Positions 29,922 to 50,934 of a stretch of DNA of 60,914 bases are shown piece by piece. Source of the stretch: Syntrophobacteraceae bacterium (GTDB lineage Bacteria; Desulfobacterota; Syntrophobacteria; Syntrophobacterales; Syntrophobacteraceae). Each line of letters starts with the position of its first letter. The stretch's first letter is position 1. The stretch is from assembly GCA_031292215.1 (NCBI GenBank), contig JARLHO010000137.1, forward strand, positions 1-60,914, written 5' to 3'. Under the pieces are notes generated by a model. It was not told the DNA's origin. It did not search any database and saw only the letters and a program-made list of their open reading frames with translations. Made by a program: the position numbers and the translations under genes.

Positions 29922-30106
29922 TTATTATATTAAGGAAAATCATTTTGGTATCAGAGATGAAAGCAAAAGTCAATTTATTCGCCGCAGCCGAAAAGAAGTT
30001 GCGCCGCGCACCAATTTCTATTAATAGGGGGACAGCTGGAGAATAAGGGGTGGCTCTTCATTCCCATATTTTATGTATATTCAACATAGGGTACAAGGGT
30101 TGTTGT

Positions 30107-31495
30107 ATGACTTTTAAAGACATGGCCAGGGATTGTCTCCTGGCGGCGATATTTTGTCTTCTCATCACGATGTTGGACACTGGCGCCTCCAACGCCGCTG
30201 AAAATCCGAGGGTTTTTACACTCAACGAACTTATCGAGATGGCCCTAAAAACCAGCCCCGAGATAAAAATGGCCGAACAGGACATCCTGGCGGCAAAAAG
30301 CGAATACAAGGAAGCAAAGGGGGGCCAACTGCCACAGTTGGATATGGTGGGAGCAACCGGACCGGCCGAAGACGCTCAATTTCCTACCGTAAATCAAGCG
30401 GGGCAGATTGTCTCCCACGACGGGGGCACATGGGATATCGGGATATTCGGCAGGCTGGATGTCTATATCACACAGCCCATTTACTCTTTCGGCAAGATCT
30501 CCAAGCGCAAGGACGCGGCAGCCCTTGGAGTCGAGGCGAGCAAAGACGCCAGAACGGCGCAACGCAACAAGGTCGTTTTGGAGGTAAAGCAACTTTATTA
30601 CGCCTATTTAATCGCGCAAGAGGGCAAGCATGCCGCCGGAGACGCGATCGGCTACATAAACGATGCGGCAAGGCGCATCCAGAGATTGATCGAGCTGAAA
30701 TCGCCAAACGTTCAACAAAGCGATCTCTACCGGGTGGAGGCCTACCAGGGGGAAGTCAAAGCTTTCGCCGCCAAGGCGCGGTCCGGCGCCAAAGTCGCCT
30801 ATGCCGCACTCAAGGCGGCGATAGGACTACCCAAAGACGAGGAGTTCAGCCTCAAGGAGACCGAACTGCCTCAATCCACGACCCAACTTGCCCCGGTAGA
30901 AATTTATATCCAGCGCGCTCTTTCAAACCGGCCCGAACTTCTGGCGGTAAAGAAGGGCGTCGCCGCCAAGGAAAAACTTGCCGAGGCAGCCAAAGCCGAC
31001 CTGTATCCTACAATTTTTGCCGTCGCTGTCGGGTCGGTCGCCGGTGCGCCCGGTCGCCAGCAATGGGACAATACTTACTGGCCGGACCAGTTCAATCATG
31101 CTTACGGCGGATTTTATGCCGGCGCGCAATGGCACTTCGACCTCGGCATCGGCACGGGAAAGCTCGACAAGGCCAGGGCTGAATACCAGAAGATGCTCAA
31201 TCAGCAAGATTACGCGCGAAGAAATATTCCCGTGGAGGTCGTGAAAGATTACCAGGACGCAGTTGAACAGGGAGAAGCCTCCCATGACTATGGGCAGGCA
31301 GTGGTCGGCGCGCGCAAGTGGATCGTCGCCTCTTTTTCCAACTTTGACCTCGGAATCGGAACGGCCCGGGACATGTTCGACGCCATAGACCGATATGGGA
31401 AAAATCAGGGAAATTATCTGGAAGCATTGTATAATTACAATCTTGCACTGGCGAACCTGGACTATGCAATCGGCGAGATGAGCGACAAACGTTAA
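30107..31495 (+). CDS. TolC-family outer-membrane channel
   Basis: 462 residues from the ATG at 30107 (AAGGG 8 bases upstream; directly followed by a signal peptide MTFKDMARDCLLAAIFCLL). OEP-type repeats: FTLNELIEMALKTSPEIKMAEQDI opens the first half and APVEIYIQRALSNRPELLAV the second. The final segments FDLGIGTARDMFDAI and EALYNYNLALANLDYAIG match the family. It is the first gene of a plus-strand set with the HpnN-like exporter and MlaC-like protein, so it is likely the outer-membrane part of that system and is distinct from the other TolC-type gene at 22.1 kb. Confidence 0.9.
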   Translation: MTFKDMARDCLLAAIFCLLITMLDTGASNAAENPRVFTLNELIEMALKTSPEIKMAEQDILAAKSEYKEAKGGQLPQLDMVGATGPAEDAQFPTVNQAGQIVSHDGGTWDIGIFGRLDVYITQPIYSFGKISKRKDAAALGVEASKDARTAQRNKVVLEVKQLYYAYLIAQEGKHAAGDAIGYINDAARRIQRLIELKSPNVQQSDLYRVEAYQGEVKAFAAKARSGAKVAYAALKAAIGLPKDEEFSLKETELPQSTTQLAPVEIYIQRALSNRPELLAVKKGVAAKEKLAEAAKADLYPTIFAVAVGSVAGAPGRQQWDNTYWPDQFNHAYGGFYAGAQWHFDLGIGTGKLDKARAEYQKMLNQQDYARRNIPVEVVKDYQDAVEQGEASHDYGQAVVGARKWIVASFSNFDLGIGTARDMFDAIDRYGKNQGNYLEALYNYNLALANLDYAIGEMSDKR

Positions 31496-31588
31496 GTGAC
31501 GGAGCGGGAAGCGGGGGGGCGGTCGCCCTCCGGCTCCTTTCTTCCTGCTCCAAGTCCTTATTATACCTCTCATACCACCAGGATCAGA

Positions 31589-34366
31589 ATGAAGCTTTTA
31601 GCATGGTTTACGGAAAAACTCGTGGCTTGGGTTCTCCCCAGGCCACGCTTAGTTCTTATAGTCGCATTACTGAGCGCAGTGGCCTCACTCTGGCTGGCGA
31701 CTACCCGACTGGGCGTTGAAACCGACCAGCTCGAACTCGTCTCCCCCAAACTGCCTCTCATAACCCGATCGGCGATGCTCGACCAATTCGAGTTTCACGG
31801 CAAGACTACGTTTACGCTCGTAATCAAGGCCCCCTCTCAGGACAGGGCCATCGAATTCATGAAGGCCGTAGTTTCGAAGATAAATGCCGACCCGAAACAT
31901 TTTCAAGGCGTATTTTACAGAGTAAATCCCGATGAGTTCAAAAAATGGCTTCTCTATTATCTCGATAAAAACGATCTGGTCGACCTAAGAGACACTATCG
32001 GGCAAAACTCGAAGATGGTTCAAAATCTTAGTGAAAATCCGGACCTGCTAAATTTTTTCACGCTTGTAAACGACGATATGGCCTCAAAGATGGTCGGCCA
32101 GCTTTTCACCGGCTTTCTCGATGATAAAAAACCGTCGACGCCAAAAGGAAAGCCGATGGACCTGGAGTTCATGATAAAGGTCCTCGGGGGTTTTTCCCAA
32201 TACCTCTCAGGCAACCCTGAGTATGTCTCTCCGTGGTCTTCATTTTTTAAAAGCGGCTCGTGGGACCTCCAGAAAGAAGGCTATCTTTGGCAGGGCAAGA
32301 AGAAACTTCTCGTAGCCGAAGTAATGCCCAGCAAAGTCAAAGGAGAAGTCAGCAAGACCCTGGGGTCTCTTGAGCGGTTGCGCTCGGACATAGGGGAACT
32401 CAAGGCCTCGGGCTTTAGCGACGTGGAAGCCGGTGTGACCGGACAGGAAGCGCTAAATAACGATCAAATGCTCACCGCGATGTCGGACATGACCAAGGCG
32501 ACCTGGTTATCGCTTCTGGGGGTCATACTGGTAATGGCCCTGTTTTTGCGTGGTTTTCGCCACCCGCTCATAATCGCTCTGACGCTTCTAGTCGGTCTTT
32601 GCTGGACATTTGGCTGGACCGCGATTTTTATCGGCCACCTCAATATACTTTCTATTGTCTTTGCCCCGATGCTCTGCGGCCTGGGGGTCGATTACGCCAT
32701 CCACTGGTTTGCCAGGTTCGAAGAGGAACGGACCTTAACCGACGCACCGCGCCTGGAGATCATAAAAAATGTCATGGGCAAGTCGGGACCGGGGATAATG
32801 CTTGCGGGCATCAGCACCGCATTTTCTTTTCTGCCCTTTATACTAACCGGGTTCCGTGGACTGATGGAGCTGGGGATGATAACCGGAATGGGCATTCTTT
32901 TTATCTTAATTGCCGATTTTACGGTTTTGCCTGCCCTAAGCTGCTACCTGGCCAACCGTGGCCCGGTCCCCGGAAGGTCCGCAGGCAAGAGAAAAGAGCG
33001 CTATCTTCTCCGGCTGGGTCCCAAGGGCATAAGGGCCATACTCGCTGCGGCCATTGTCTTTACCGCCCTCGGCGTCATCGGCGCCTCACACGTCCATTTC
33101 AGCTTAAATCCCATGCGGCTCCAGTCCAAAAACTCGGAATCGGTTCACTGGGAAAAAGTCATGGTGGAAAATTCCGACCGCTCGATTCTTTCCGCAGCCC
33201 TCATCACCAACTCGGCTCAAGAGGTCGAAAAAGAGAGCGCACGATTTCGGGCCTTGCCGACAGTTTCAGACGTTGACAACGTCTTTTCGCTTCTCCCCGA
33301 TGATCAGGAGGCCAAGATCCCTATCCTGCGCTCGATCGCCCAAGCAGTTCCAGGGCTAAAATCTTCCATCGCCGGTCTTAGCGCCGCCAATCTCGACCCA
33401 CCGCCGGCCGGTGATGCGGCCTACAAGGCATCGCTCATTGACGTTCTCGAAAGAATCAACTTTAAGATGCAGCCGGACCAGGCGTCCAAATGGGGGGCTT
33501 CAAAACCTCAGGTCCAACAGATGAGTACCGTCAGAACGTTTATGGGCGAAATCCTGCAGTCCCTGCACAAAAGTTCGCCGGCTCGAGCCAAAAGACTCTT
33601 GCAATACCGTGAACGTTTCAGAAAAGACATCGTGAACCAGTGGAGCATCATCAGCAGCGGTTCTTCGGCCTCCCCGATGACCATTCGGGATATCCCGGCC
33701 CAATTAAGGGACCAGTTTTACCAGAACGGCCGTTATGTCATAAGGATTTACCCGAAGGGAGCGATCTGGCAGGAAGGGACGCTGACAGATTTCGTAAAAA
33801 GCCTTGAGACGGTGAACCCGGGCGTTCTGGGAGACCCGGTCAGCCTGTATGTGTTTTCCTCGGCCTTCAAGAAGGCATCGATTGAAGCCTCGGTGTACGC
33901 CCTGATAGCGGTAGCGCTGATTCTTCTGCTTACATTCAAAAGTCTTCGGCTTATGCTCATATCGCTTGTCCCGCTAATTATCGGCTCGATCTGGACAGTG
34001 GGGTTGATGGGGGCGACGGGCTTTGATTTTAATCTTGCCAACAGCATATTCATGCCGCTGGTCGTCGGGGCGGGCGTCGAATATGGGGTTATCATACTCT
34101 ACAGGTGGCGGGAGGGGATGTCAGGATACGGACTGCTGCCCTACAGCACGGGCAAGGGAGTAATTCTTGCCGCCCTTACCACCACCATCGGTTTTGGCGT
34201 ATTGATGATATCTGAAAACCAGGGGATTTTCAGCCTGGGGTTTGTGGCGTGGTCGGGAAGCATTTGCGTTCTTCTCTCCGCGTTGCTCATCCTGCCTTCA
34301 ATTCTGTCTTTCATGAACAACCCGGCCCCTGTTTTAGAAAAGGAGACAAAGAATGCCACGTGTTAG
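31589..34366 (+). CDS. RND/MMPL-superfamily lipid exporter, HpnN-like
   Basis: 925 residues from the ATG at 31589 (AGGA upstream; the longer frame begins with a GTG in repeat-like sequence). Twelve membrane helices in two halves, each with a large periplasmic loop: helix 1 near residues 15-35, a five-helix block near 335-490, helix 7 near 505-525, and a last block near 765-910. The first half has DYAIHWFARFEEER, the second EYGVIILYRWREG, the usual RND helix-4 type motifs. It matches the hopanoid-transporter HpnN group, which moves hopanoids or other lipids to the outer membrane. The next gene is of HpnM/MlaC type, as in hpn clusters. No squalene-hopene cyclase lies in the window, so the cargo may differ. 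Confidence 0.88.
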   Translation: MKLLAWFTEKLVAWVLPRPRLVLIVALLSAVASLWLATTRLGVETDQLELVSPKLPLITRSAMLDQFEFHGKTTFTLVIKAPSQDRAIEFMKAVVSKINADPKHFQGVFYRVNPDEFKKWLLYYLDKNDLVDLRDTIGQNSKMVQNLSENPDLLNFFTLVNDDMASKMVGQLFTGFLDDKKPSTPKGKPMDLEFMIKVLGGFSQYLSGNPEYVSPWSSFFKSGSWDLQKEGYLWQGKKKLLVAEVMPSKVKGEVSKTLGSLERLRSDIGELKASGFSDVEAGVTGQEALNNDQMLTAMSDMTKATWLSLLGVILVMALFLRGFRHPLIIALTLLVGLCWTFGWTAIFIGHLNILSIVFAPMLCGLGVDYAIHWFARFEEERTLTDAPRLEIIKNVMGKSGPGIMLAGISTAFSFLPFILTGFRGLMELGMITGMGILFILIADFTVLPALSCYLANRGPVPGRSAGKRKERYLLRLGPKGIRAILAAAIVFTALGVIGASHVHFSLNPMRLQSKNSESVHWEKVMVENSDRSILSAALITNSAQEVEKESARFRALPTVSDVDNVFSLLPDDQEAKIPILRSIAQAVPGLKSSIAGLSAANLDPPPAGDAAYKASLIDVLERINFKMQPDQASKWGASKPQVQQMSTVRTFMGEILQSLHKSSPARAKRLLQYRERFRKDIVNQWSIISSGSSASPMTIRDIPAQLRDQFYQNGRYVIRIYPKGAIWQEGTLTDFVKSLETVNPGVLGDPVSLYVFSSAFKKASIEASVYALIAVALILLLTFKSLRLMLISLVPLIIGSIWTVGLMGATGFDFNLANSIFMPLVVGAGVEYGVIILYRWREGMSGYGLLPYSTGKGVILAALTTTIGFGVLMISENQGIFSLGFVAWSGSICVLLSALLILPSILSFMNNPAPVLEKETKNATC

Positions 34367-34973
34367 ACATTGGAAGTTATTGCTTTTCGCATCTTGTTTC
34401 ATGACTCTTTGGGCCGCTGGGCCGCTTAGAGCGGATTCGGGAGCTACGGCGAAGGTGCGTTCCGTGTTGGACAAGGCCATGGAGATACAGACAAACCCCT
34501 CACTGCAGGGGACTTCGCACCGCAAGGAGCGCGCAGGAATCATCCGCAAGCTGATTGCTCAAAACTTTTTGTCCTCGGAAATGGCAAAAGAGTCCCTGCA
34601 GGAGTATTGGGGAAGGATTTCGGCAAGCCAGCGCGCGCAGTACCGAACGCTTCTCACCGCGATTTTTATCGATTCGTACACCAGACAGGTGGTCGACTTC
34701 CTGAAACAAGAGAAAATCCAGTATCCGGGGGAGAGCCCAGAAGGCGCCTTCACGAAGGTGAAAACCGTAATAATGCGAACCGACGAGCACATCCCGGTCG
34801 ATTATATTATGGAACAAAGCGGCGGAAAGTGGATGATAAGAGATGTGCTAATCGACGGGGTGGGCATAGTTGAAACCTATAAAAGCTCCTTTGCGACATT
34901 TCTTGGCGCGCATTCGTTTAGCGAATTGATCCAGAGGATGGCCATTCAAAAGCGGGCCAACGAGGGACTGTAA
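34353..34973 (+). CDS. HpnM/MlaC (Ttg2D)-like periplasmic lipid-binding protein
   Basis: 206 residues, with a signal peptide of about 25 residues (ending LRA). It overlaps the end of the RND gene by 14 bases. The fold segments match Ttg2D: KVRSVLDKAMEI, RAGIIRKLIAQNFLSSEMAKESLQEYWGRISASQRAQYRTLLTAIFIDSY broken into helices, then VKTVIMRTDEHIPVDYIMEQSGGKWMIRDVLIDGVGIVETY in strands. MlaC proteins carry phospholipid across the periplasm; HpnM is the form linked to HpnN. It ends 12 bases before a strong terminator. Confidence 0.88.
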   Translation: MPRVRHWKLLLFASCFMTLWAAGPLRADSGATAKVRSVLDKAMEIQTNPSLQGTSHRKERAGIIRKLIAQNFLSSEMAKESLQEYWGRISASQRAQYRTLLTAIFIDSYTRQVVDFLKQEKIQYPGESPEGAFTKVKTVIMRTDEHIPVDYIMEQSGGKWMIRDVLIDGVGIVETYKSSFATFLGAHSFSELIQRMAIQKRANEGL

Positions 34974-34985
34974 GTGCAGTGAGCG

Positions 34986-35027
34986 GTGATGAGCGAACGG
35001 TTTTCCTGTTCGCTCATCACTTTGTTT
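34986..35027 (+). terminator. Intrinsic terminator of the TolC-RND-MlaC operon
   Basis: GTGATGAGCGAAC (34986-34998) pairs perfectly with 35008-35020 around a 9-base loop, and TTTGTTTT follows. A 13-bp stem and U tract make this the clearest rho-independent terminator in the window. It also sits at the convergent end of the acyltransferase gene on the other strand. Confidence 0.9.
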
Positions 35028-36001
35028 TAGCTAGTTTTTTTCTGCTCACTCTTCACTGCTCTATCAAAGACCGGTTTTCTCCAGGATTTTTTCCACCTGT
35101 CGTGCATCCATAAATACTGTTCGGGAAACCGGGTGATTATCTCCTCCATCCGGGCGTTTATCTCGCGAGTGATGCGCACGATTTCCGAGGCGTCGTCGGC
35201 TTTTTGCGGGTCTGGCCGGATGGGATCGGAAACAAAGCCTTCAAAGTAATAGGGATCCTCGGTACGACAGGCGGCAACGACGACAACCGGGCGTTTGTGC
35301 CTTACGGCGAGCAGGGCCGGAAGGGGGGTTACAGTTGCGGGTTTTCCAAAAAAATCAACTCTTAGCCCCTTGTTGTGGCTCTGGTCGGGAAGCATGGCGA
35401 CGGATACGCCTTTTCTCAGCACGCGATCGAGGTGGAACATGGCGTTTGCCTTGGGCACCATTAAGTGGCCGCTGCCGATGCGGCTGGAAAGAAGAGCCCG
35501 CTCGAGATAGGGGTTATCGAGAGGACGAATGACCACGGCGAGCGGGATACCGATTTGAGCGCTCAGATGGGGCAAAAGCTCCCAGTTGCCAAGGTGGGGA
35601 GTAACGAAGATGCACCCTCCCGACTGGTCATGAATCGCCTTTGCTTTACGGAAAAGATGTTCGATATGGCCGCTTTTATAGCGACTGCCGGCAATGACCT
35701 TTCCGTCTTTTACGCGGAAGGGCGATTTTATCATTTCCGCCGCGGTCAGCAGGAAAGCCTTGCAGCTCTGCTGAGCAAGGCGCTTTATCTCCTTTTCCCC
35801 CATCCGGTCGCCAAAGGCCATCCTGATATTATCCAGGGCAATTTTGCGTCTCCTGGGGGCGACAAGGTAGAACACCCGGCCAAGAATTGCGCAAACACCC
35901 CGCACGACCCTCACGGGCATAGGCCTGGCAAGAGCAATGACGCCGTAGAAGGCCAACCATTCAACGATCTGTAAGGACTTGGATTTCGCCTTCTTGCCCA
36001 T
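35027..36001 (-). CDS. LpxL/HtrB-like lysophospholipid-type acyltransferase
   Basis: 324 residues from the ATG at 36001, which lies 3 bases after the previous stop; an earlier frame to 36040 only re-reads the upstream gene. An N-terminal membrane helix (about 12-32) precedes the catalytic TPHLGNWELLP with its His-x4-Glu. PLDNPYLERAL and LPDQSHNKGLRVDFFGKPA follow, as in lipid A lauroyl/myristoyl transferases. Such enzymes take an acyl chain from ACP. As the last gene of the ketosynthase cluster it may hand the cluster's product to a lipid or sugar acceptor rather than to lipid A. LpxL-like genes hold this place in aryl-polyene and dialkylresorcinol-type clusters. Confidence 0.88.
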   Translation of the reverse strand: MGKKAKSKSLQIVEWLAFYGVIALARPMPVRVVRGVCAILGRVFYLVAPRRRKIALDNIRMAFGDRMGEKEIKRLAQQSCKAFLLTAAEMIKSPFRVKDGKVIAGSRYKSGHIEHLFRKAKAIHDQSGGCIFVTPHLGNWELLPHLSAQIGIPLAVVIRPLDNPYLERALLSSRIGSGHLMVPKANAMFHLDRVLRKGVSVAMLPDQSHNKGLRVDFFGKPATVTPLPALLAVRHKRPVVVVAACRTEDPYYFEGFVSDPIRPDPQKADDASEIVRITREINARMEEIITRFPEQYLWMHDRWKKSWRKPVFDRAVKSEQKKTS

Positions 36002-36003
36002 AT

Positions 36004-37302
36004 TCAGTTCGCCCGGCCCTCGACTAGAACACTCGAGCACTGCCCCATTATCCCATAGCTTACCGAGACAAAGCTTTTTCCGGCCGCTTTCCGGGTCGAG
36101 GCCGAAATGTCTAGTCCCTCGAAGGCCGGTTCGGCCATCGAAAAGTTAAGGGTCCCCGGAACAAGTCCGGCATTGATTGCCTCGATTCCCAGGATGACTT
36201 CGCATATATCGCTCGCGGCCCCCATATGACCGGTGTAGGCCTTAAGGGCGCAAACGGGGGCGCTTCGCCCCTCGGCCTCAAATATTGTCTGGATCGATTT
36301 GAGCTCGGACCTGTCCCCCTTTCGCGTGCCGCTGCCGTGAGGACAGAGGAAAGCGAGGTCCCCGACATCCACCGAGGCTTCCCGCAGGGCCTGGCGAATA
36401 CAGTTTTTCGACACCTCGTCCGGCACGCTAAGGCTTTTTCCTGCCGGGGGCTCGATACAGTTTCCATTGCCGTTTATTTCAGCCAGGATATTGGCGCCGC
36501 GAGCCATGGCGAGGTCTCGATCCTCGACCAGAATGGCCGCGCCCCCTTCCGCGGGTATGAACCCATCCCTTGCCCTGTCCAGGGGCCTAAAAGAAGCGGG
36601 ACCATGTTTACACCGGGAAAGAATTCCCAGCCCATCGAGCTCATACATGGGAATTTCGGTTATCCAGCAGCAGCAGCCCACCGCGAGCGCGATATCTGCC
36701 TCTCCCTGGCCTATCCGGCGACAGGCGAGTTCGAGCGCGTGGGCGCCGGAGGGCGAAAAGCTCGCAAGGCTTGTGTTTGGCCCCATGAACTCCAACGCTG
36801 CGGTAAGAAAGCTAAAAAGATTATTGCTGATGGATTCGAGCAGGAAAAAAGGGTTAACCTTGTTTATCAGGGATTTGTTTAGAGCAAGGCGATCCACCCC
36901 TTTCCCGCGGTTTTTGGTCGCGTCCTTTAGAGCGGGATGCATAAATTCGCATCCCGTTTTCGTAAGATCCCCCGAGGCCAGGAAAAGCGAGCGGCGCTCC
37001 CCGGGGACCGAAGCCGGATCGATACGCGAGTTTTTTACCGCCTCCATCGCCGCTTCGAACCCGAGCACCGAGCCGCGATTTAGAAACCTTACCTGGCCGG
37101 CCAGGCTGGGCGGAACGCCCTCGGGGCGTTCGACTCCCTCGACTCGACCGTAGAACTGGTAGTGTTCGGGAGCATCCGGGCGCACGCAGCGTTTAATTCC
37201 CGTTTTTGCGGCAAGCACATTTTTCCAGTTGGCCTCCACCCCCTTGCCCAAAGGTGTCACCAAACCCATTCCCGTAACGACGACCCGCCTCGATGAGGAC
37301 AT
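36004..37302 (-). CDS. FabF-like ketosynthase with Ser in place of the active-site Cys
   Basis: 432 residues, complete thiolase fold (RRVVVTGMGLVTPLG to VSVSYGIMGQCSSVLVEG). The nucleophile position reads SFSPSGAHAL, with Ser183 where FabF has Cys (TACASGAHAI). The first catalytic His (CPHGSGTRKGDRSE) and the Lys and second His (LKAYTGHMGAASD) are kept. Condensation therefore should fail or be slow, but malonyl decarboxylation, which needs the two His, may remain, as in KSQ or chain-length-factor types. It follows the second dehydratase by 8 bases and precedes the acyltransferase gene. It may be the partner of the ketosynthase at 38.5-39.8 kb. Confidence 0.85.
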   Translation of the reverse strand: MSSSRRVVVTGMGLVTPLGKGVEANWKNVLAAKTGIKRCVRPDAPEHYQFYGRVEGVERPEGVPPSLAGQVRFLNRGSVLGFEAAMEAVKNSRIDPASVPGERRSLFLASGDLTKTGCEFMHPALKDATKNRGKGVDRLALNKSLINKVNPFFLLESISNNLFSFLTAALEFMGPNTSLASFSPSGAHALELACRRIGQGEADIALAVGCCCWITEIPMYELDGLGILSRCKHGPASFRPLDRARDGFIPAEGGAAILVEDRDLAMARGANILAEINGNGNCIEPPAGKSLSVPDEVSKNCIRQALREASVDVGDLAFLCPHGSGTRKGDRSELKSIQTIFEAEGRSAPVCALKAYTGHMGAASDICEVILGIEAINAGLVPGTLNFSMAEPAFEGLDISASTRKAAGKSFVSVSYGIMGQCSSVLVEGRAN

Positions 37303-37310
37303 TTCGGCCC

Positions 37311-37757
37311 CTAGACCCCGCGCTTTAGAATTTCAAAAAACCTTTTTTGCTCTTCAACTTCCTCGATGGTTTCCAGCTCCACCAGGTTTCCCTGGAACTC
37401 GGCTTTAAGCCTTCGTTTTCCGTTGACCTTGGCAATTGCCCCATATACCACAAGGTCTTTGGACGGGGCGGGAGCGCAACTTACGCTGAGTTCCACCCGG
37501 TCGCCCGGAATGACAAAACCGTAGAAGCCGCACTTTAGAACCCTTGAGACCAAAAACCATTTTTCAAAATCCGAAGACGCCGCCTCGAGCCAGCCGGTGA
37601 GCTGCACGAGCGCTTCAAGCAGCATTATGCCGGGCATGATGGGGTTTTTCGGAAAATGAAATTCGAGGAAATCTTCGCTCATAGCGACATTTTTGACCCC
37701 GGCTATGCTTTTCCCGGGCTCAACGGACGTTATCCGGTCAACCAAAAGATATCTCAC
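37311..37757 (-). CDS. FabZ-like 3-hydroxyacyl-ACP dehydratase (second copy)
   Basis: 148 residues from the GTG at 37757 (GAAGGGA upstream). An ATG at 37787 is possible but abuts a palindromic repeat without a ribosome site, and the GTG start VRYLLVDRIT aligns exactly with MRLLFYDRIT of the sister gene. Hot-dog fold with His34 (FHFPKNPIMPG) and Glu48 (LLEAL), the FabZ catalytic pair at the same numbers as in the other copy. It should dehydrate an ACP-bound beta-hydroxy chain. The C-terminus ends in a charged helix (EEVEEQKRFFEILK). REP-like and tandem repeats lie directly upstream. Confidence 0.87.
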   Translation of the reverse strand: MRYLLVDRITSVEPGKSIAGVKNVAMSEDFLEFHFPKNPIMPGIMLLEALVQLTGWLEAASSDFEKWFLVSRVLKCGFYGFVIPGDRVELSVSCAPAPSKDLVVYGAIAKVNGKRRLKAEFQGNLVELETIEEVEEQKRFFEILKRGV

Positions 37758-37787
37758 TTGACGGGTCCCTTCAATGAATCTTGGCAT

Positions 37788-37818: not shown

Positions 37819-37894
37819 AAGACTACAAGACTACAAGACTACAAGACTACAAGACTACAAGACTACAAGACTACAAGACTACAAGACTACAAGA
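37815..37894 (+). repeat. Ten exact tandem copies of an 8-base unit (CTACAAGA)
   Basis: Exactly 80 bases of CTACAAGA repeated ten times with no mismatch. The first unit begins with the CTAC that closes the REP-like palindrome, so the array seems to have grown out of the palindrome's end. Perfect identity indicates recent slippage. Confidence 0.97.
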
Positions 37895-37904
37895 CTTAAG
37901 AACA

Positions 37905-38024: not shown

Positions 38025-38136
38025 CACCCAACGGCGCTCACGATTTTTCGCCTGTTTGCCCGAAATTGTGGATGGCCAAGCCAAGCTGTCACAGAGTGCA
38101 CCCAACGGCGCTCACGATTTTTCGCCTGTTTGCCCG
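38025..38136 (+). repeat. Two exact 38-base direct repeats, the second overlapping the 3-prime end of acpS
   Basis: Bases 38025-38062 and 38099-38136 are identical (beginning CACCCAACGGCGCTCACG and ending TTTGCCCG), 74 bases apart. The second copy contains the stop and last codons of the holo-ACP synthase gene. The first copy is a displaced duplicate of that gene end, followed by other sequence. Confidence 0.95.
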
Positions 38137-38519
38137 GCGGCAAGAATTACGGAGGCTACCGCGAAATCGCCGGAATGAGAAATGGATACCGTGTACTGGT
38201 AAACTTTCTTTCGACGGCCCGCTGCCTGCACCCTGCCTTTTACCCGCAGATCGGGTTTCCCGGAACCCTCGGCCACCACTTCCACTTCCCGTAGCGCTCC
38301 GTCTATTCCCTCGCCGGAGAGCCCGATGCCCAGCGCCTTAAGGCAAGCTTCCTTGGCCGCGAACCTGCCCGCCAGATGGAGGTGAGGTTTGGGCATCGAA
38401 AAGCAATACTGGCGCTCGGCATCGGTAAAAATTTCCGCGGCAAGTCCCGGGCTTGCCAGCAAGACCCTCTCCATTTTGGAGATCTGAACGATGTCGATTC
38501 CCTGCAGGATGTGCATCAT
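38112..38519 (-). CDS. acpS: Holo-[acyl-carrier-protein] synthase (4-prime-phosphopantetheinyl transferase)
   Basis: 135 residues from the ATG at 38519, which overlaps the TGA of the ketosynthase gene (ATGATG; 38516 is also possible). GIDIVQISKMERVL has the metal-binding Asp, and AGRFAAKEACLKALG the Glu and Lys of AcpS; VSISHSGDFAVASVIL is the closing strand pair. It moves phosphopantetheine from CoA onto the Ser of ACP. A dedicated copy inside the cluster suggests that it primes the unusual ACP-zinc-ribbon protein encoded at 43 kb. The last eight codons lie in a duplicated 38-base segment. Confidence 0.92.
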   Translation of the reverse strand: MMHILQGIDIVQISKMERVLLASPGLAAEIFTDAERQYCFSMPKPHLHLAGRFAAKEACLKALGIGLSGEGIDGALREVEVVAEGSGKPDLRVKGRVQAAGRRKKVYQYTVSISHSGDFAVASVILAAGQTGEKS

Positions 38520-39811
38520 CGGGCGCCCGGACCCGCAAAATACTTTTTCACCACAATTGTCGCATTCTGCCCGCCGAAGCCAAACGAATTGGAGAGAGCG
38601 GCGCGAACGACCCTTTGCCGGGAGACATCGGGAACGTAATCGAGATCGCACTTCGGGTCGGGACTGGATAGATTTATGGTCGGATGGATTCGATTTTGCG
38701 CCACCGAAAGCGCCGTAAAGGCGAATTCGGGTCCTCCCGAGCCGGCCAGCAGGTGACCGATGAGCGATTTACTCGAACTTACGGCCGGATACGAGGTGCA
38801 GTTTTCAAAAACCTTCTTTATGGCGATGGTTTCGGCCAAATCGTTTAGCTTGGTCGATGTGCCGTGAGCGTTTATGTAGTCGATACCCTCCGGAGCGATT
38901 TTCGAATCGGCAAGGGCGAGCGACATGCACTCCTTCGCCCCTCGGCCTTCGGGATGGGGCGCGGTAAGCCGCCATGCGTCCATGGTCGACGCAAACCCCG
39001 CGACTTCGGCGTATATGCGCGCTCCGCGGGCCAGGGCGTGATGCTCCTCTTCGAGAACGGCCATCCCGGCGCCTTCCCCCATCACAAGACCCGACCTCTT
39101 GCGGTCGAAGGGACGGCACAGTCGCTCGGGGTCCATCCTCGATACGGCAGCAGAGCCTAGCAGCACGAAAAAGACAAGCCCCACCGGATTTATCATCGAA
39201 TCGGCGCCCCCGGCAAGAAAAACGTCCGCCTGACCTCTTTTTACGGCCCGGTATGCGGCGCCGAGGGCAAGGGTTGCGGAGGCGCAAGCCGAGGTGATCG
39301 TAAAATTTGCGCCCTTCAGAACGAATTTGGAGGCGATAAGGGTTGCGGGCGCGCTCGAATTATTGCGTATTATCGAGTCGCGCTCGACAAGATCGAGCTC
39401 AGAGGCAAAGCGTGCGGGGTCAAACTTTTTACCGGAGGTAAGCCATCTGGCTATATCTTCTAGCCGATTGACACCCAGACCCGCGCCAAGGGCTACTCCA
39501 AACCTCGATCGGTCTTCCCCGCAGGGGGTAAAGCCTGCGTCGCTTAGCGCTTTTTTGGCGGCCCACAAGGCGAAAAGGGTCCGGCGCTCCCCTCCGGATT
39601 GGGCTTCGGAGGGAAAATCACGGCAAATCGAGCGGTAATCGTTTTCACAAACCTGCGCGGCAGCCTGCACCCGGGATTTTCCAGCGCACTGGAGCCGAAT
39701 TTTCGACACCCCCGAGACACCGGCCAGGGCTTTTTGCCAGTTTTGCTCAAGTTCGAGCCCCAGCGCCGTCGCAAGCCCCAGGCCCGTTATCACCACCTTG
39801 CGGTCCGTCAT
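38516..39811 (-). CDS. FabF-like beta-ketoacyl synthase (second active copy)
   Basis: 431 residues. VVITGLGLATALG opens the fold. Cys176 is in TSACASATLALG, the catalytic His in NAHGTSTKLND, and Lys and His in SSSKSLIGHLLAGSG, so the Cys-His-His triad is complete. LSNSFGFGGQNATIVVKKY ends it. It should condense malonyl-ACP with an acyl chain. In the cluster it is followed by acpS (4-base overlap), the second dehydratase and the Ser-type ketosynthase. Three palindromes separate its start from the first dehydratase, so it may have its own promoter or depend on readthrough. Confidence 0.93.
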   Translation of the reverse strand: MTDRKVVITGLGLATALGLELEQNWQKALAGVSGVSKIRLQCAGKSRVQAAAQVCENDYRSICRDFPSEAQSGGERRTLFALWAAKKALSDAGFTPCGEDRSRFGVALGAGLGVNRLEDIARWLTSGKKFDPARFASELDLVERDSIIRNNSSAPATLIASKFVLKGANFTITSACASATLALGAAYRAVKRGQADVFLAGGADSMINPVGLVFFVLLGSAAVSRMDPERLCRPFDRKRSGLVMGEGAGMAVLEEEHHALARGARIYAEVAGFASTMDAWRLTAPHPEGRGAKECMSLALADSKIAPEGIDYINAHGTSTKLNDLAETIAIKKVFENCTSYPAVSSSKSLIGHLLAGSGGPEFAFTALSVAQNRIHPTINLSSPDPKCDLDYVPDVSRQRVVRAALSNSFGFGGQNATIVVKKYFAGPGAR

Positions 39812-39822
39812 GAATAATCCTT

Positions 39823-39996
39823 GTTGGGCAGAGCTGCGCGCTTAGCCCAACCTTGTATCTTAAAAGAAAAGGGAGCAACCGAGGCTCCTTTTTGTTGGGC
39901 TGCGCTGCGCTTAGCCCAACCTACAAACTGTGCAACGATTGCCGCCTGAATAAGCGATATTTTTTGTTGGGCTGCGCTGCGCTTAGCCCAACCTAC
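39823..39996. repeat. Three REP-like palindromes in a row (copies 3-5)
   Basis: Palindromes at 39823-39853, 39894-39924 and 39966-39996 all share GTTGGGC...TTAGCCCAACCT. Spacing start to start is 71 and 72 bases, so the copies are regularly placed, and the last two are identical over 31 bases. The words TTTTTGTTGGGC precede both. The region between the two dehydratase/ketosynthase blocks, 39812-40073, has no gene. Confidence 0.92.
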
Positions 39997-40024
39997 AGGG
40001 TTGCTCACCAGTCGCATGAGAGCA

Positions 40025-40044
40025 GTTGGGGTTATCACCCCAAC
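40025..40044. terminator. GTTGGGGT hairpin between the two halves of the lipid cluster
   Basis: GTTGGGGT (40025-40032) pairs with ACCCCAAC (40037-40044) around a TATC loop. It lies 30 bases past the stop of the first dehydratase on the minus strand, where a transcription stop or attenuator would act. There is no long U tract, so it may only be a further palindromic repeat. Confidence 0.45.
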
Positions 40045-40073
40045 AACGCTTGCAGCGCGGGCTGTGCATGGTT

Positions 40074-40517
40074 TTAGACCCACTGCGAGCCGCCGTAGTA
40101 TCGAAACAACGCGCGCAGTCCCTGCGAGTCGGAAGATCCGGCATGAACGTAGATGATCCTTCCGATGGAGGCGATTTCAACACCGTCTACCTTCACCTGT
40201 GCCGAGCCGAGCGAATCGCTTTTCGAGGTGGAAACAAGGCGTCCCGAGATCTCTGCGGAAAAGCCGGGCCGAAGATCGGGGGCCATTGTGACATCCTCGA
40301 TAAGGGACATCACCGCCGAGAGGCTGAAGTCGTGGGAGCGGATAACGAGCCAGCCAAGGAGCTGAGCCATCGCCTCGATAAATATCACGCCGGGAACAAG
40401 GGGTTTTTTCCGGAAATGGTTGCGCAGGTATTCTTCCGAGAGGCAAAAGGTTTTTACCCCGGTAATCGATTCTCCCGGCACAAGGGCGGTTATCCGGTCG
40501 TAGAAAAGAAGTCTCAT
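40074..40517 (-). CDS. FabZ-like 3-hydroxyacyl-ACP dehydratase (first copy)
   Basis: 147 residues from the ATG at 40517, which overlaps the previous stop (ATGA) and aligns with the start of the sister copy. Hot-dog fold with His34 (NHFRKKPLVPG) and Glu48 (FIEAMAQLLG). Phe-Arg-Lys replaces the usual Phe-Pro after the His, a mild change. It should form the trans double bond on the ACP-bound chain after ketoreduction. It follows the degenerate ketosynthase directly. Confidence 0.88.
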   Translation of the reverse strand: MRLLFYDRITALVPGESITGVKTFCLSEEYLRNHFRKKPLVPGVIFIEAMAQLLGWLVIRSHDFSLSAVMSLIEDVTMAPDLRPGFSAEISGRLVSTSKSDSLGSAQVKVDGVEIASIGRIIYVHAGSSDSQGLRALFRYYGGSQWV

Positions 40518-41758
40518 GGACCGTTTGCTCCTTCGAAAATCATTGCGCCGCATCCTCCCTCGCAGCTTATTCCATTTAGGAGGAGACGGCCGATTGTAAA
40601 ATCACGGGAGGCGCCTTTGCGGGAAGGCGCGAGGAATATTTCGGGCAACCGGGCACGATCCGGCATAGAGAGGGCAAGCGCGCAGCTTAGGGCCGGGCCG
40701 GCGGCGAGCGTTTCGCCCACAGCGGCACTGGCGGCCACGATAACCGGGGGGAGAGCGCCCGTATCGAAGAGGTTGAGGACAGCTTCCAGTTCGTTTTCAT
40801 GGGAGGTTGCGAGCATCACGAGGTCTATGTCTTCCGGGGAAATCCCGGCATCGGAAAGCGCTGCCCGCATCGCCGAAGATATCGCCTGGGTGGAAGCAAA
40901 TCGGCCGTCTTCGCTTCTTTCACACGAAAAACCAAAGCCCGAGATCCGGGCGTAAATGTGAGCCCCCCTTTCGACCGCAGTGGAAAGGGGTTCCAGGACG
41001 AGCATGGCGCCCGCTTCTCCAAGAAAGGGGGGAGGAGCGACATTGCCCGGGGGCGGCACCAGCAGATTTTTAAGTTTTGCCCTGGCGAGCCCAAGAGGCG
41101 TTATCTCTTCGCCAATGCCTCCCGCCAGGGCCATTTTCGCTCGTCCCTCCCGCAATGCGCAGGCAGCTTCATAGACCGCTCTCACACCCGAATCGGCGTG
41201 CGGGCAAAAAACTGCGTTTTCCCCGGCCAGACCGAAGTGAATGGAGGCCTGGCAAAAGGCGACATTATTTAGCATTCCGAGCGGCCACAACGGATAGATT
41301 TCCTGAGAGCCGCGAAGAAAGAAGCTGTCGTAGTCGATTCCGGCGTCCGGGTGTAAGGATTTGACCACAGCGGGCAGCAAATCCTCAACGTGATAGTCTA
41401 CCATTCCCATACCGGCAAAAAAGGCACAATCCCCGGGAGCGAACATCCCTTGTCCGATCGAAGCCGAGCGCAGTGCCTCACCCACTGAAGACATCAGAAG
41501 CGCCAGATGCTTTCCCATGGTCAGGGCGAGCTGAGAGGAGATGTCGGTTTTAAAGGGTGCAAGATTTTTAACCGGGGCGGCCAGGCAGCCAAACCCGCTT
41601 GCATCGAAACCGGTGATTTCAGCCGCGCCCGATTTTCCGGCCAGAAAGCTCGAAACGATCTCCGGGAGCGAATTTCCAAGCGAGCACACTGCTCCGAGAC
41701 CAGTAATCGCCACCTGGTCCGATGCTACGGGGAAAAGAGGCAAGCCGGCGGTTTTCAT
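40514..41758 (-). CDS. Degenerate ketosynthase of chain-length-factor type
   Basis: 414 residues with the ketosynthase fold (DQVAITGLGAVCSLGNSLPEI at the start) but without its catalytic residues. At the nucleophile elbow the sequence is FCPHADSGVRAV, putting Ala188 where Cys should be. The first catalytic His is replaced (LATSHENELE where NAHGTGT is usual) and the second also (VGETLAAGPAL for IGHTLGAAG). It overlaps both the active ketosynthase before it and the dehydratase after it by 4 bases. This is the layout of ketosynthase/chain-length-factor pairs of type II polyketide and aryl-polyene systems, where the dead partner shapes the pocket. Confidence 0.85.
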   Translation of the reverse strand: MKTAGLPLFPVASDQVAITGLGAVCSLGNSLPEIVSSFLAGKSGAAEITGFDASGFGCLAAPVKNLAPFKTDISSQLALTMGKHLALLMSSVGEALRSASIGQGMFAPGDCAFFAGMGMVDYHVEDLLPAVVKSLHPDAGIDYDSFFLRGSQEIYPLWPLGMLNNVAFCQASIHFGLAGENAVFCPHADSGVRAVYEAACALREGRAKMALAGGIGEEITPLGLARAKLKNLLVPPPGNVAPPPFLGEAGAMLVLEPLSTAVERGAHIYARISGFGFSCERSEDGRFASTQAISSAMRAALSDAGISPEDIDLVMLATSHENELEAVLNLFDTGALPPVIVAASAAVGETLAAGPALSCALALSMPDRARLPEIFLAPSRKGASRDFTIGRLLLNGISCEGGCGAMIFEGANGP

Positions 41759-43047
41759 TTTCTGAATTTACCCAGGCAAAGACATGCGTTCTGGCCGCCA
41801 AAGCCGAAGGAATTGGAAATCGCTATGCCGTGTTCAAGGCTTCGAGCAATATTAGGAACATAGTCCAGGACGCATTTCGGGTCGGGAAACTCATAGTTTA
41901 TGGTGGGAAGAAGGGTTGAGCCGTTCATCCCCATCAGGGTTAGACCGGCTTCTATAGCACCCCCGGCAGCAATGGTGTGGCCAATCATCGACTTATTGGA
42001 ACTAACCGGGACAAGATTTGCTCTCTCGCCCAAAACCCTCTTTATGGCCAGCGTTTCTATCTGGTCGTTTTGTATGGTCGAGGTCCCATGGGCATTGATG
42101 TACTCGATAGCGGCGGCTGGAAGCCCGGCATCGGCAAGGGCCTTTTGCATGGCGAAAAACGCCCCGTCGCCTTTGGGATGAATGTCGGTAATCCTGAAGG
42201 CATCGGCAGAGGAACCATACCCGAGTACTTCGCCAAGGATGGTTGCCCCGCGCGCCTCGGCGTGGCCCAGGGCTTCCAGGATAAGCGCTCCCGCACCTTC
42301 GGACATGACAAAGCCGTTTCTTTTGCGGTCAAATGGCCTCGAAGCCTTGTCGGGAGAAGAGTATTTCTCGGCAAGGGCTCGGATCAGGACAAAGCCGACA
42401 AACCCCATGAAGTTTACGTTCGATTCGCACCCACCGGCGATGACCACCTCGGCTTTCCCCGACCTGATTGTCCCCAAAGCCTCGCCGATCGCCTGCGCTC
42501 CGGCAGCACAGGCGGAAACCACGGAAAAACCCGGGCCCTTGCAATCGAACAAAATCTGCAGGATCGAAGTAGCCACATCGGGTTTTCTGCGGAAGAAATT
42601 AAAGAAGGAATAGGCGCTGTCACGGGTAAGGCCGTCAATGTCCCAATGGTCCCCCCCGGCGTGGCGGTAGAGGCGGACAAGATCTTCAACCGAAGGGTTT
42701 TCACCGTGATAGCCAAGACTTACGCCGATCGTTCCCCTATCTTCGATCGAACCCAGCCGCGCCATTTCGACAGCCTCGGAGGCTGCTGCCATCATGAGTT
42801 TTAGACCGCGCGAGCTGCATTTTTCGATACCCTGGAGCCTTTTAGACTGAAAACCGCCCAGCCAGGAATCGCTCACCTGCCCGCCGATACGGCATGGCAG
42901 CCCCCCGGTTTCAAAAGAGCTGATGTAGTCAATGCCGGAGACGCCGTTTCGAGCGTTTTCGAAGGTTTCCCCGGAGTTTTTTCCAATCGGCGTGATCATT
43001 CCATAACCGGTAACGACCACCCGCCTGCTATTTGTCTGCAAGTTCAC
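41755..43047 (-). CDS. FabF-like beta-ketoacyl synthase (first active copy)
   Basis: 430 residues from a GTG. RRVVVTGYGMITPIG opens the fold. Cys180 (VVSACAAGAQAIG), His (NAHGTSTIQND), Lys and second His (SSNKSMIGHTIAAGG) complete the triad. SNSFGFGGQNACLCLGKF ends it. It is 7 bases after the ACP gene and overlaps the chain-length-factor-like gene, so the two ketosynthase-fold proteins probably form a heterodimer. It condenses malonyl-ACP extender units onto the growing chain. Confidence 0.94.
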   Translation of the reverse strand: MNLQTNSRRVVVTGYGMITPIGKNSGETFENARNGVSGIDYISSFETGGLPCRIGGQVSDSWLGGFQSKRLQGIEKCSSRGLKLMMAAASEAVEMARLGSIEDRGTIGVSLGYHGENPSVEDLVRLYRHAGGDHWDIDGLTRDSAYSFFNFFRRKPDVATSILQILFDCKGPGFSVVSACAAGAQAIGEALGTIRSGKAEVVIAGGCESNVNFMGFVGFVLIRALAEKYSSPDKASRPFDRKRNGFVMSEGAGALILEALGHAEARGATILGEVLGYGSSADAFRITDIHPKGDGAFFAMQKALADAGLPAAAIEYINAHGTSTIQNDQIETLAIKRVLGERANLVPVSSNKSMIGHTIAAGGAIEAGLTLMGMNGSTLLPTINYEFPDPKCVLDYVPNIARSLEHGIAISNSFGFGGQNACLCLGKFRK

Positions 43048-43054: not shown

Positions 43055-43618
43055 TCAAAAAATTTTCTTGCTTTCCTGGATCTGCTTTAGCCACTCTTCT
43101 ATGAGGTCGTCCCCGCTGGTAAAGGCAGCAGGCTCGCCGCACCCCCCGCACGCTATCAGGGTTTCTTCCTGGAGCGCCCAGTTTTTCGCCCCGCAGTTTT
43201 CGCAATTTTCGGGCAGCGTGTCCAAAAGACTGGTCACCCCTTCGGCTATGGAGGCAACCGTCACCATAACGGGCAGCTCATCCATATCCATGCCGGCCCG
43301 AATATGGGCGGAGTAGCCGTCGTAGCGCATGCCGAGCACTTCGGCGGCTTTTCCGGTAAGTTTACCTTCCGCATCGATTGCGCTCTCTTCGCCGAAGAGC
43401 TCCTCCATGTGATCGATCACCGTGCGCCTGGCCATTTTGATCCCGAAAGTCTGCTCCAGACGGTAATTTATATCCAGAAAATCGAGCGACTCGGCGCCCA
43501 GGTCCTTCATGAGGGAACTCTCAGCCTTGATGCCGGCCGGGTCGATATCGATCCCTTCGGCAATCGCCTTTTTCACTTCTTCCATTACCCTCTGTTCGGC
43601 AACGAGATTTTGCTTCAT
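43055..43618 (-). CDS. Acyl carrier protein fused to a C-terminal zinc-ribbon-like domain
   Basis: 187 residues. Residues 1-80 are an ACP: SLMKDLGAESLDFLDINYRLE, with Ser44 as the phosphopantetheine site. A middle part (about 85-130, MRYDGYSAHIRAGMDMDELP) is unlike standalone ACPs. Residues 135-160 hold CENCGAKNW...LIACGGCGE, two Cys-x2-Cys pairs spaced for a zinc ribbon. The C-terminus EEWLKQIQESKKIF is helical. ACPs are normally 75-85 residues, so this fusion is notable. AGGGGTTACA precedes the ATG. It sits between an SDR and the first ketosynthase and should carry the chain for the whole cluster. Confidence 0.85.
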   Translation of the reverse strand: MKQNLVAEQRVMEEVKKAIAEGIDIDPAGIKAESSLMKDLGAESLDFLDINYRLEQTFGIKMARRTVIDHMEELFGEESAIDAEGKLTGKAAEVLGMRYDGYSAHIRAGMDMDELPVMVTVASIAEGVTSLLDTLPENCENCGAKNWALQEETLIACGGCGEPAAFTSGDDLIEEWLKQIQESKKIF

Positions 43619-43631: not shown

Positions 43632-44426
43632 CTATGATTTCGGCTTCCTTACCCATGCCGGGCGATATAGTCTATTGCTAAGTCCATTGTCAACCACGAC
43701 TGTCTGGCCGCGAATCCCGCGAGCGGCCGGGCTGCAAAGAAATACAACCACCTCGGCCAGGGCCTGCGGGCTTACGCACAGCTCATCGGGGATATGTTCG
43801 AGCTCTTCCATATATTGTCTAAGTGTCTTAAACGAATCGGTCTTGACTATACCGCCGCAGACCCCGTTGGCAAAAACTCCCCTTTCGGCCAGACTCTCCG
43901 TACAGTCTCGGACCACCGCCTCCATGGCGGCTTTCATGCTTCCGAGCGGATAGGACGGATTATAGAACCGGCTCCCGAGGCTCGATATAAAAACGATTCT
44001 TCCCCCGGCGGCCTCCAGCAGGGGAAGGGATTTCTGAATGCAGAAGATGTTGCCCATGTAGTTGGTTTCGACAAGCTGGCGGATTTCTCGCTCCAGCAGC
44101 TTTTCTATGGGCTTAAACGGCGCCTTGGCGGCATTTAGCACGAGGAAATCAAGCCGGCCGCGCCAAGAGGACACCGCCTCCACCATTTCCCCGACAGAGG
44201 CCTTGGAGGCGATATCGGCCGGAACGGCCAGGGCTTTTCGGCCCAGCTCCTCTATCTCGCGGCAAACCTCGTCGGCTTTTCGCTTCGAGGCGCCATCGGG
44301 CTTGGAATGGTTTACGACCACATCGGCGCCTGCCCCAGCGAAAGCCAGGGCGATAGCCCTGCCGATGCCCCTGGAACTTCCCGTTACAAGAGCTACTTTA
44401 TCGGTAAAAAAACTGTTTTCGGCCAC
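43632..44426 (-). CDS. Short-chain dehydrogenase, FabL/FabG-like (enoyl- or ketoacyl-ACP reductase)
   Basis: 264 residues from a GTG with GGAAAGAT upstream. VALVTGSSRGIGRAIALAFA binds the dinucleotide and LVLNAA is the NNAG-like motif. The active-site stretch is ISSLGSRFYNPSYPLGSMKAAMEA: the Lys is placed as in FabL, but the Tyr is one residue nearer (five residues between Tyr and Lys; FabL has six, FabG three). The end IRGQTVVVDNGLSNRL matches FabL. It is therefore either the ketoreductase or the enoyl reductase of the cluster, and it is the only reductase visible. If it is the ketoreductase, the product would keep its double bonds. Confidence 0.83.
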   Translation of the reverse strand: MAENSFFTDKVALVTGSSRGIGRAIALAFAGAGADVVVNHSKPDGASKRKADEVCREIEELGRKALAVPADIASKASVGEMVEAVSSWRGRLDFLVLNAAKAPFKPIEKLLEREIRQLVETNYMGNIFCIQKSLPLLEAAGGRIVFISSLGSRFYNPSYPLGSMKAAMEAVVRDCTESLAERGVFANGVCGGIVKTDSFKTLRQYMEELEHIPDELCVSPQALAEVVVFLCSPAARGIRGQTVVVDNGLSNRLYRPAWVRKPKS

Positions 44427-45163: not shown

Positions 45164-45541
45164 TCAATTGGCAAGGCGTTTTATTCCTTCCCTGAGGGTG
45201 GGGACGTTAAAGTTGATGAGAAGCCCGACTTTGAGGCCTGTCAGTTTGAGATAGGTGAGGAGCTGCGCTTCATGCACGGGCTTAAGGACGTCACAAGCTT
45301 TGAGTTCGACGATCAGGCAATCGGCCACGACAAGATCCAGGCGATACCCGCAGTCAAGCTTTCTTCCCCGGTATTCGACCGGGATCTCTTTTTGTCTCTG
45401 GTAAGGGACGGACCTCAAGTCCAACTCCATGCACAAACAGGCCTCGTAAACCGTCTCCAGCAGTCCGGGGCCAAGGGCCTTGTGAACTTCCATCGCTGCT
45501 CCGATAACCTGCCCGGTAAGCTTATTGATTTCCGAGGCCAT
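45164..45541 (-). CDS. GxxExxY family protein
   Basis: 125 residues from the ATG at 45541 (AGGAG 7 bases upstream; the ATG one codon earlier is also possible). INKLTGQVIGAAMEVHKALGPGLLETVYEACL contains the name-giving Gly-x2-Glu-x2-Tyr; YRLDLVVADCLIVELKAC holds an Asp and a Glu-x-Lys in the arrangement of PD-(D/E)XK nucleases; HEAQLLTYLKLTG follows. The family is widespread and usually lone; a nuclease-like role is inferred but unproved. It is divergent from the CRISPR operon and so may share the gap at 45542-45791. Confidence 0.88.
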   Translation of the reverse strand: MASEINKLTGQVIGAAMEVHKALGPGLLETVYEACLCMELDLRSVPYQRQKEIPVEYRGRKLDCGYRLDLVVADCLIVELKACDVLKPVHEAQLLTYLKLTGLKVGLLINFNVPTLREGIKRLAN

Positions 45542-45791
45542 CATCACACTCCTCTTCACACAATCCTTTCCCTGTGGCCGACCTGATGGTCTACTCCGCG
45601 TGTTCCGAGTTAACATGAAGGACCGGATCATGAAGTCACCACAAGAGTCATTCTGTCAAGCAGATTGTCATGCAATTATCCTGTTTAAAGATTGCGTTGC
45701 CGCATTGGATAGCGTAATTATCCGCAAACCAAGTCTTTTTAGATCCAGCCATAAAGCAACGCCCACCAACAGATGTCCAAAAGGGGGGAAG

Positions 45792-46949: not shown

Positions 46950-47064
46950 AATTTCCGGCAAGTTTTCCGGAAAGATAATTTCCCGCATTCGGGACTCCAA
47001 CACGTTTACCCTCCTACAGCTTGCGGTCGCAAGTTCTCAAAGCGAAAAAGGAGGATGTCGGCAG

Positions 47065-48048: not shown

Positions 48049-48092
48049 GCGAGTCAGGGAAAAATTTTCCAGAAATGTAAAGGAGCCGGTTT

Positions 48093-50501: not shown

Positions 50502-50514
50502 AGAGGAGAAACCA

Positions 50515-50925: not shown

Positions 50926-50934
50926 GAGACCCGC

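Follow-up and report, generated by a model that had tools for sequence, protein, structure and literature searches.

An acyl carrier protein fused to a predicted metal ribbon in a conserved lipid-type operon of Desulfobacterota, Nitrospirota and other bacteria

A Syntrophobacteraceae contig, of which the 60,914 nucleotides analysed here are called the window, encodes an acyl carrier protein (ACP) that continues into a C-terminal tail with the features of a metal ribbon. The arrangement is a real, conserved domain fusion within a conserved lipid-type operon, and it is apparently undescribed: in the titles and abstract openings of the open-licence literature, we found no description of an ACP fused to a zinc ribbon, zinc-binding domain or zinc finger, nor of such an operon. 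We give a probability of about 0.5 to the reading that the protein is the dedicated carrier of a self-contained type II fatty-acid-like pathway and that the ribbon provides it with a second binding face. Carrier proteins are usually distinguished only by the charge patterns of helix II. If the reading is true, the fused metal ribbon would be a natural, built-in address tag on a carrier, useful both for understanding and for engineering carrier-enzyme choice; through the fusion, moreover, a conserved lipid pathway of Nitrospirota and Syntrophobacteraceae-type bacteria can be recognised and its product put to the test.

An earlier note, made from the letters of the window, had described an ACP with Ser44 followed by two Cys-x2-Cys pairs, and this description is borne out. 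Both parts lie in one gene (Table 1), the PP-binding model PF00550 matches residues 14-70 (E=1e-6; 29.3 bits, against a Pfam cut-off of 20.8), and Ser44 and all four cysteines (139, 142, 157 and 160) are invariant in an alignment of 26 ribbon ACPs, the first cysteine pair being Cys-x-Cys in four of the rows. In the tail, W147, G169, D170, L172 and Q181 are likewise invariant; the C-terminal Phe is conserved, the window protein ending in KKIF after the helix that starts with GDDL. The full-length AlphaFold2 model, which is metal-free and was built from the 26 sequences, has a pLDDT of 91.9 and a pTM of 0.87. In addition to the helices entered in Table 1 it contains one at residues 169-184, and its strands 147-150 and 154-157 form a hairpin between the two Cys-x2-Cys knuckles, which is the layout of a zinc ribbon. 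The four-helix carrier fold is present: solved ACPs span approximately residues 4-136 of the model, with 71-95 residues aligned at Z of about 9-11. Because their alignments extend over this range, residues 66-136 can be divided into an insert (66-111) and, from 112 to 136, the helices that close the fold. The same note had counted about 50 unassigned residues after the ACP, a view that gives way here to an insert lying within the carrier fold and followed by its last helices, as judged from the solved ACPs and from ribbon-less relatives. The ribbon modelled alone was poorly predicted (pLDDT 59.7), a result in keeping with, but no proof of, a tail that packs against the carrier.

Table 1. Positions in the window of the fusion gene and its parts, the other operon genes and the transport-related neighbours; residue numbers refer to the fusion protein, and helices to its structure model.
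Feature	Position	Strand	Remarks
ACP-ribbon fusion protein, whole gene	43055..43618	-	187 aa, ATG start, single ORF
ACP core, residues 1-65	43424..43618	-	PF00550 match 14-70; helices 8-23, 44-58
Phosphopantetheine Ser44 in GAESLDFLD	codon 43487-43489	-	in ACP core
Insert within carrier fold, residues 66-111	43286..43423	-	helices 67-75, 89-98; skipped by solved ACPs
Closing helices of ACP fold, residues 112-136	43211..43285	-	helices 112-118, 121-132; structure-alignment ranges stop at about 132-137
Metal-ribbon tail (predicted), residues 137-187	43055..43210	-	Cys4, beta hairpin, GDDL helix, C-terminal Phe
Cys139, Cys142, Cys157, Cys160	codons 43139-43204	-	two Cys-x2-Cys pairs
SDR reductase	43632..44426	-	best NCBIfam model FabL (enoyl-ACP reductase type), below cut-off
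KS1 ketosynthase	41755..43047	-	Cys-His-His
CLF-like partner	40514..41758	-	Cys replaced by Ala, both His lost (window copy)
FabZ-like dehydratase 2	40074..40553	-	His and Glu kept (window copy)
KS3 ketosynthase	38516..39811	-	Cys-His-His
AcpS-type phosphopantetheinyl transferase	38112..38651	-	true start probably inside ORF
FabZ-like dehydratase 1	37311..37787	-	
KS4 ketosynthase	36004..37302	-	Ser for catalytic Cys, both His kept
LpxL-like acyltransferase	35027..36040	-	HLGNWE; sole PF03279 match in the window's genome
MlaC-family protein	34353..34973	+	HpnM-like, weak, below cut-off; convergent neighbour
MMPL/RND transporter	31496..34366	+	best model HpnN, 517.6 bits against a cut-off of 751.85; neighbour
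TolC-type outer-membrane channel (OEP)	30050..31495	+	neighbour

The gene is part of a minus-strand operon in the order SDR, ACP-ribbon, KS1, CLF-like, FabZ2, KS3, AcpS, FabZ1, KS4 and LpxL-like acyltransferase. A search for the same fusion beside ketosynthase genes, which the earlier note had suggested, was successful: among 50 distinct homologues scoring above 100 bits, 49 have KS1 directly downstream (the exception being the truncated L007) and 48 have the SDR directly upstream (all but L103 and L110). Eighteen clusters could be read through to LpxL, namely those of the window, L002, L004, L005, L006, L008, L012, L013, L015, L016, L017, L019 and L053-L058. SDR, ACP-ribbon, KS1, KS4 and LpxL are present in all 18, FabZ1 and FabZ2 in 17 each (L055 lacks both), CLF and KS3 in 13 (missing in L053, L054, L055, L057 and L058), AcpS in 12, and a second, FabG-like SDR in 10, the window not being one of these. 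Eight loci stand outside this count. The available stretches of L003, L007, L010, L011 and L018 end before LpxL; within those of L009, L014 and L020 no LpxL was seen, and only SDR, ACP and KS1 adjoin in L014 and L020. The genomes of L009 and L020 do have an LpxL of the cluster clade, at another locus (L069 and L068, respectively).

The ketosynthase-type proteins of the operon differ in their active-site residues. KS1 carries the Cys-His-His triad in the window and in 24 of 24 other copies, and KS3 does so in the window and 15 others. In the CLF-like protein the Cys column is Ala, Gly or Ser in all six sequences aligned, that of the window included. For KS4, all eight aligned sequences show Ser at the Cys column and retain both His, and the same SP motif recurs in 20 of 20, the variable letter of its alignment being located two residues past the Cys column; judged by these residues, KS4 may be an acyltransferase-like or priming ketosynthase, or a partner subunit. 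FabL is the best of 227 NCBIfam families for the SDR, which scores 201.7 bits against it and so misses the cut-off of 328, and an invariant YPLGxMK replaces the FabG-type YxxxK, a motif that we liken to those of FabI and FabL. The LpxL-like protein reaches the family score of PF03279 (163.1 bits), and shows the H-x4-D/E motif in the form HLGNWE. Two repeats lie inside the operon. The gap between FabZ1 and AcpS holds 10.2 perfect copies of the 8-base unit CTACAAGA (37815-37896), and a change in their number could alter expression; in the intergenic stretch 39812-40073 an overlapping ORF repeats the peptide VGWAKRSAAQQK, a sign of a DNA repeat.

With this content the cluster has the look of an assembly line devoted to a single acyl chain, supplied with a carrier of its own and in many cases also with an enzyme to activate that carrier. 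The LpxL-like enzyme at its end suggests that the carrier hands the chain to a sugar lipid, and the set of genes suggests that the product is an outer-membrane lipid. In the mechanism that we propose, a structural zinc would be held by the four cysteines, and the ribbon together with its helix would offer a second binding face by which the pathway's dedicated enzymes, with KS1/KS4 or the LpxL-like acyltransferase as the likeliest, would tell the ribbon carrier from the housekeeping ACP. A special acyl chain would be built by the SDR, KS and FabZ enzymes on the phosphopantetheine of Ser44, and the LpxL-like enzyme would transfer that chain to lipid A or another sugar lipid; in the window's genus, a block of HpnN/HpnM-like genes may assist in carrying the product to the outer membrane. 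In the tree, the LpxL proteins of the clusters group in a single clade (support 100/100), apart from E. coli LpxL/LpxM, rhizobial LpxXL and most non-cluster copies. Four of 11 genomes (G000, G196, G198 and G199) have no PF03279 match besides the cluster copy, the seven others having two or three; the gammaproteobacterial and acidobacterial carriers of the cluster possess a second, non-cluster LpxL. LpxC was matched in nine of the 11 genomes and not in G198 and G205, the assemblies of which could be incomplete, and it is because of these two that lipid A was dropped as a certain acceptor.

The neighbourhood of the operon adds genes of transport and of hopanoid type. In the window, a block at 28007-34973 comprises a glycosyltransferase, a YdjC protein (HpnK-like), the TolC-type channel and the HpnN-like and HpnM-like proteins, and the part made up of the channel, HpnN-like and MlaC genes is convergent with the operon. 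HpnN-like and MlaC-like genes adjoin LpxL in the window, L002, L004, L005 and L055, that is, among the loci read, only in close relatives of the window; YdjC (best model HpnK, below cut-off) and the glycosyltransferase are found farther out, in the window and L055. The window's genome has two hopene-cyclase matches above cut-off. A hopene cyclase was detected in 10 of 12 ribbon-ACP genomes searched, and no match was obtained in G196 and G199. The co-occurrence is a lead only, and a necessary link to hopanoids was dropped on account of those two genomes and of a comparison confined to ribbon-bearing ones.

These neighbours, together with the KS1/CLF pair, the hopene cyclases and the ribbon ACPs of G198 and G205 that occur in genomes with no LpxC match, could also be accommodated by a polyketide-like, CLF-dependent pathway leading to an exported glycolipid or pigment instead of a lipid A chain, with the LpxL-like enzyme acylating another sugar lipid. 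The likeness to the KS-CLF systems of type II polyketide synthases is genuine insofar as an active KS is encoded beside an inactive CLF-like protein and with an ACP gene; the excerpt available of a type II polyketide synthase catalogue mentions KS-CLFs from Nitrospirae and makes no mention of zinc (PMC10132072). However, CLF is dispensable in the present family, as is KS3, both being absent from five of the 18 complete clusters. The operon contains two FabZ and an LpxL-like acyltransferase, its SDR of enoyl-reductase type suits saturated chains, and neither an aromatic starter gene nor a cyclase gene was seen among its members. We consider the polyketide-like pathway possible but on the unlikely side. 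A fatty-acid-like pathway with its own carrier, which is the reading that we prefer, can be extended tentatively: the metal-folded tail would be a recognition handle that makes the pathway orthogonal to housekeeping synthesis, and the chain would be destined for an outer-membrane glycolipid, in hopanoid-making hosts maybe a hopanoid- or lipid A-linked one exported by the HpnN/HpnM-like neighbours. This extension is speculative, and we would expect it to fail in some part rather than to hold as a whole.

Dedicated carriers for special lipids are known from other bacteria. The rhizobial cluster acpXL-fabZXL-fabF2XL-fabF1XL-adh-lpxXL, as summarised in PMC11901934, serves the very-long-chain fatty acids of lipid A. 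Like the operon of the window, it combines a FabZ and an acyltransferase of the LpxL family with a dedicated ACP, whose sequence departs from the standard after helix II, and with two KS, one active and one degenerate; in the six rhizobial clusters compared, the ACP, the KS pair and LpxXL occur together in all six and FabZ was detected in four. Rhizobial FabF2XL has Glu at the Cys column in four of four aligned sequences, and a degenerate KS partner is therefore common to the rhizobial and the window systems. The AcpXL-like RPA2022 (2kw2) superposes on the model of the window protein with Z 9.9 over 95 residues at 3.0 Å. AcpXL itself is nevertheless unlike the window protein, having approximately 93 residues and no ribbon, and the window protein scores 43.1 bits against the AcpXL family (NF005079 / PRK06508), which is below the cut-off of 83. 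In the trees, KS1, KS4/CLF and LpxL fall into clades apart from FabF1XL (100/99), FabF2XL (100/100) and LpxXL, with long branches that leave the deep order unsure. On the family score and the trees, membership in the AcpXL system was rejected. The anammox-specific amxACP (7auf) is another dedicated ACP for a special lipid and shares the carrier fold (Z 10.0, 1.4 Å over 78 residues), but its 89-residue chain has no ribbon and no insert of such length. The earlier note had further compared the tail with the rubredoxin-like domains of DUF35/OB-fold proteins. In DUF35 (PF01796) proteins such as SSO2064, according to the summary in PMC2954200, a ribbon does occur in the context of acyl metabolism, but at the N-terminus and ahead of an OB-fold. 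The ribbon of the window protein is C-terminal to the ACP and followed by one helix, with no OB-fold in the model, and the comparison finds no support. That DUF35 is not among the 25 listed of the 85 Pfam families that match the tail does not count against it.

We infer that the tail is most likely a zinc ribbon of the structural kind, through which the carrier has a docking face reserved for its dedicated enzymes. This is favoured because the tail is conserved beyond its cysteines, because it seems tied to the KS1/KS4/LpxL clade, and because it is absent from relatives that offload their chain otherwise, as in L051 with its male-sterility-type reductase. Since SDR, KS1, KS4 and LpxL are all always present, the docking partner cannot be singled out among them. 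The earlier note had thought of docking on the ketosynthase pair; CLF cannot be an essential dock, because it is absent from five of the 18 complete clusters, and any KS dock would therefore be KS1 or KS1/KS4.

Selection on the ribbon is purifying. The dN/dS of residues 137-187 is 0.24, 0.24 and 0.21 against three close relatives and 0.18 against a more distant one, while being undefined in two of the six pairs, where dS is saturated; the ACP core has values of 0.04-0.14 and thus evolves more slowly. The faster evolution of the ribbon, and the contrast between the poor ribbon-alone model and the one compact fold predicted for the whole chain, would suit a ribbon that is a stabilising cap only, packed on the insert and the closing helices and having no partner of its own. 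We hold this to be rather improbable, as the insert does not need the ribbon, being kept by ribbon-less relatives, and as the conservation of W147, the GDxL motif, Q181 and the C-terminal Phe goes beyond the cysteines.

Pfam zinc-ribbon models match the tail weakly (best E of about 3e-4), none of them uniquely, and the best zinc-ribbon score of the window row is 16.6 bits against a cut-off of 27.1. The rubredoxin-like model of rubrerythrin gives weak matches in 14 of the 26 rows, and E=3.3e-4 in one row, which would speak for an iron site of rubredoxin type, or for a redox or metal-status switch controlling the carrier. Zinc-ribbon models, however, match as many rows or more (Zn_ribbon_RRN7 matches 19 of 26), the best PDB profile matches of the tail, none of them significant, are ribosomal zinc ribbons, and the operon contains no electron-transfer partner; we regard an iron or redox site as quite unlikely. 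The Pfam matches being weak and of mixed zinc and rubredoxin-like types, zinc is the likelier metal at the predicted Cys4 site. Foldseek run on the low-confidence ribbon-alone model likewise returned weak ribosomal ribbons (best E 0.069), and because that model is poor the list was not used as evidence.

The fusion is conserved to an extent that rules out chance, frameshift or misassembly. Of the 50 homologues, L007 is truncated where its contig stops; the 49 others have a complete C-terminus, and none of them has lost any of the four cysteines. The full pattern C-x(1,2)-C...W...C-x2-C...GD is present in 48, with Y replacing W in L103. Genomes from four phyla, assembled independently of one another, have the identical junction in an open frame, and the joining of an ACP gene to a separate ribbon gene by a sequencing, frame or assembly fault can be dismissed. 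Either such a fault or homologues with the ribbon as a separate protein had been put forward in the earlier note as grounds for doubting the fusion, and neither was found in the genomes and loci examined here. A ribbon-profile search of seven genomes with ribbon-less relatives (G088, G124, G227, G679, G658, G656 and G621) and of the window's genome gave no convincing stand-alone ribbon, the best match outside the window protein (E 8.7e-4) lying inside a 292-residue frame. A scan of 11 loci for the ribbon pattern returned only short, unlikely frames and one 417-residue ORF of L114 with a CxxC..CxxC stretch.

The ribbon-less ACPs that carry the insert are those of L034/L051, L035/L052, L112-L115 and Photobacterium sp. 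DA100 (L118), the Photobacterium protein being the one ribbon-less relative in the plasmid collection. In the L034, L035, L112-L115 and L118 proteins the insert is present, with the same pattern as in the window, and the chain ends before the ribbon. Homologous KS, FabZ and SDR genes are located near several of them, and in the trees the closest relatives of KS1 and KS4 are KS proteins of L051, placed as their sisters with support of 100/98 and 97/95, respectively. In contrast to the window, LpxL matches are absent from L051, L052 and L118, and the L051 cluster has instead a male-sterility-type reductase and a shikimate-dehydrogenase-like protein. Since the insert is common to the ribbon-less relatives, the simplest reading of these sequences is that the ribbon is probably a later addition to an insert-bearing ACP. 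The L051 cluster (L051:1-14233) comprises, besides the two proteins just named and the ribbon-less ACP, five KS and several FabZ-like proteins, and judging by its genes it perhaps makes a fatty aldehyde or alcohol.

A scan of contigs found 19 homologous loci, and the fusion occurs in Desulfobacterota, Nitrospirota, Acidobacteriota and Gammaproteobacteria. The genome tallies that follow include the genome of the query or centre itself, overlap with the locus scan and come from sets drawn evenly, which makes the frequencies rough. Full-length matches are present in 14 of 196 kin genomes, comprising all 11 of the window's genus (the copy of G005 being split across two contigs) plus three further members of its family. 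In Nitrospirota, the phylum of G198, 38 of 395 genomes have a match that extends through the ribbon, among them G429 and G541 without the N-terminus and G503 with an internal stop; a 39th match, in G227, spans only residues 6-136. Three of 297 genomes of Acidobacteriota, the phylum of G202, have the ribbon, with five further matches lacking it or most of it, and in Pseudomonadota the count is one of 398, namely G200 itself.

On the other side of the operon from the transport genes, type III CRISPR-Cas genes and further ORFs on the same strand occupy positions 45525-52743 of the window, including Cas_NE0113 (PF09623) at 45525-46949 and a Cas10/Csm1 protein at 48093-50501. Elsewhere in the window, approximately 41 copies of the 8-base repeat AGGAAGCG extend over positions 17421-17731.
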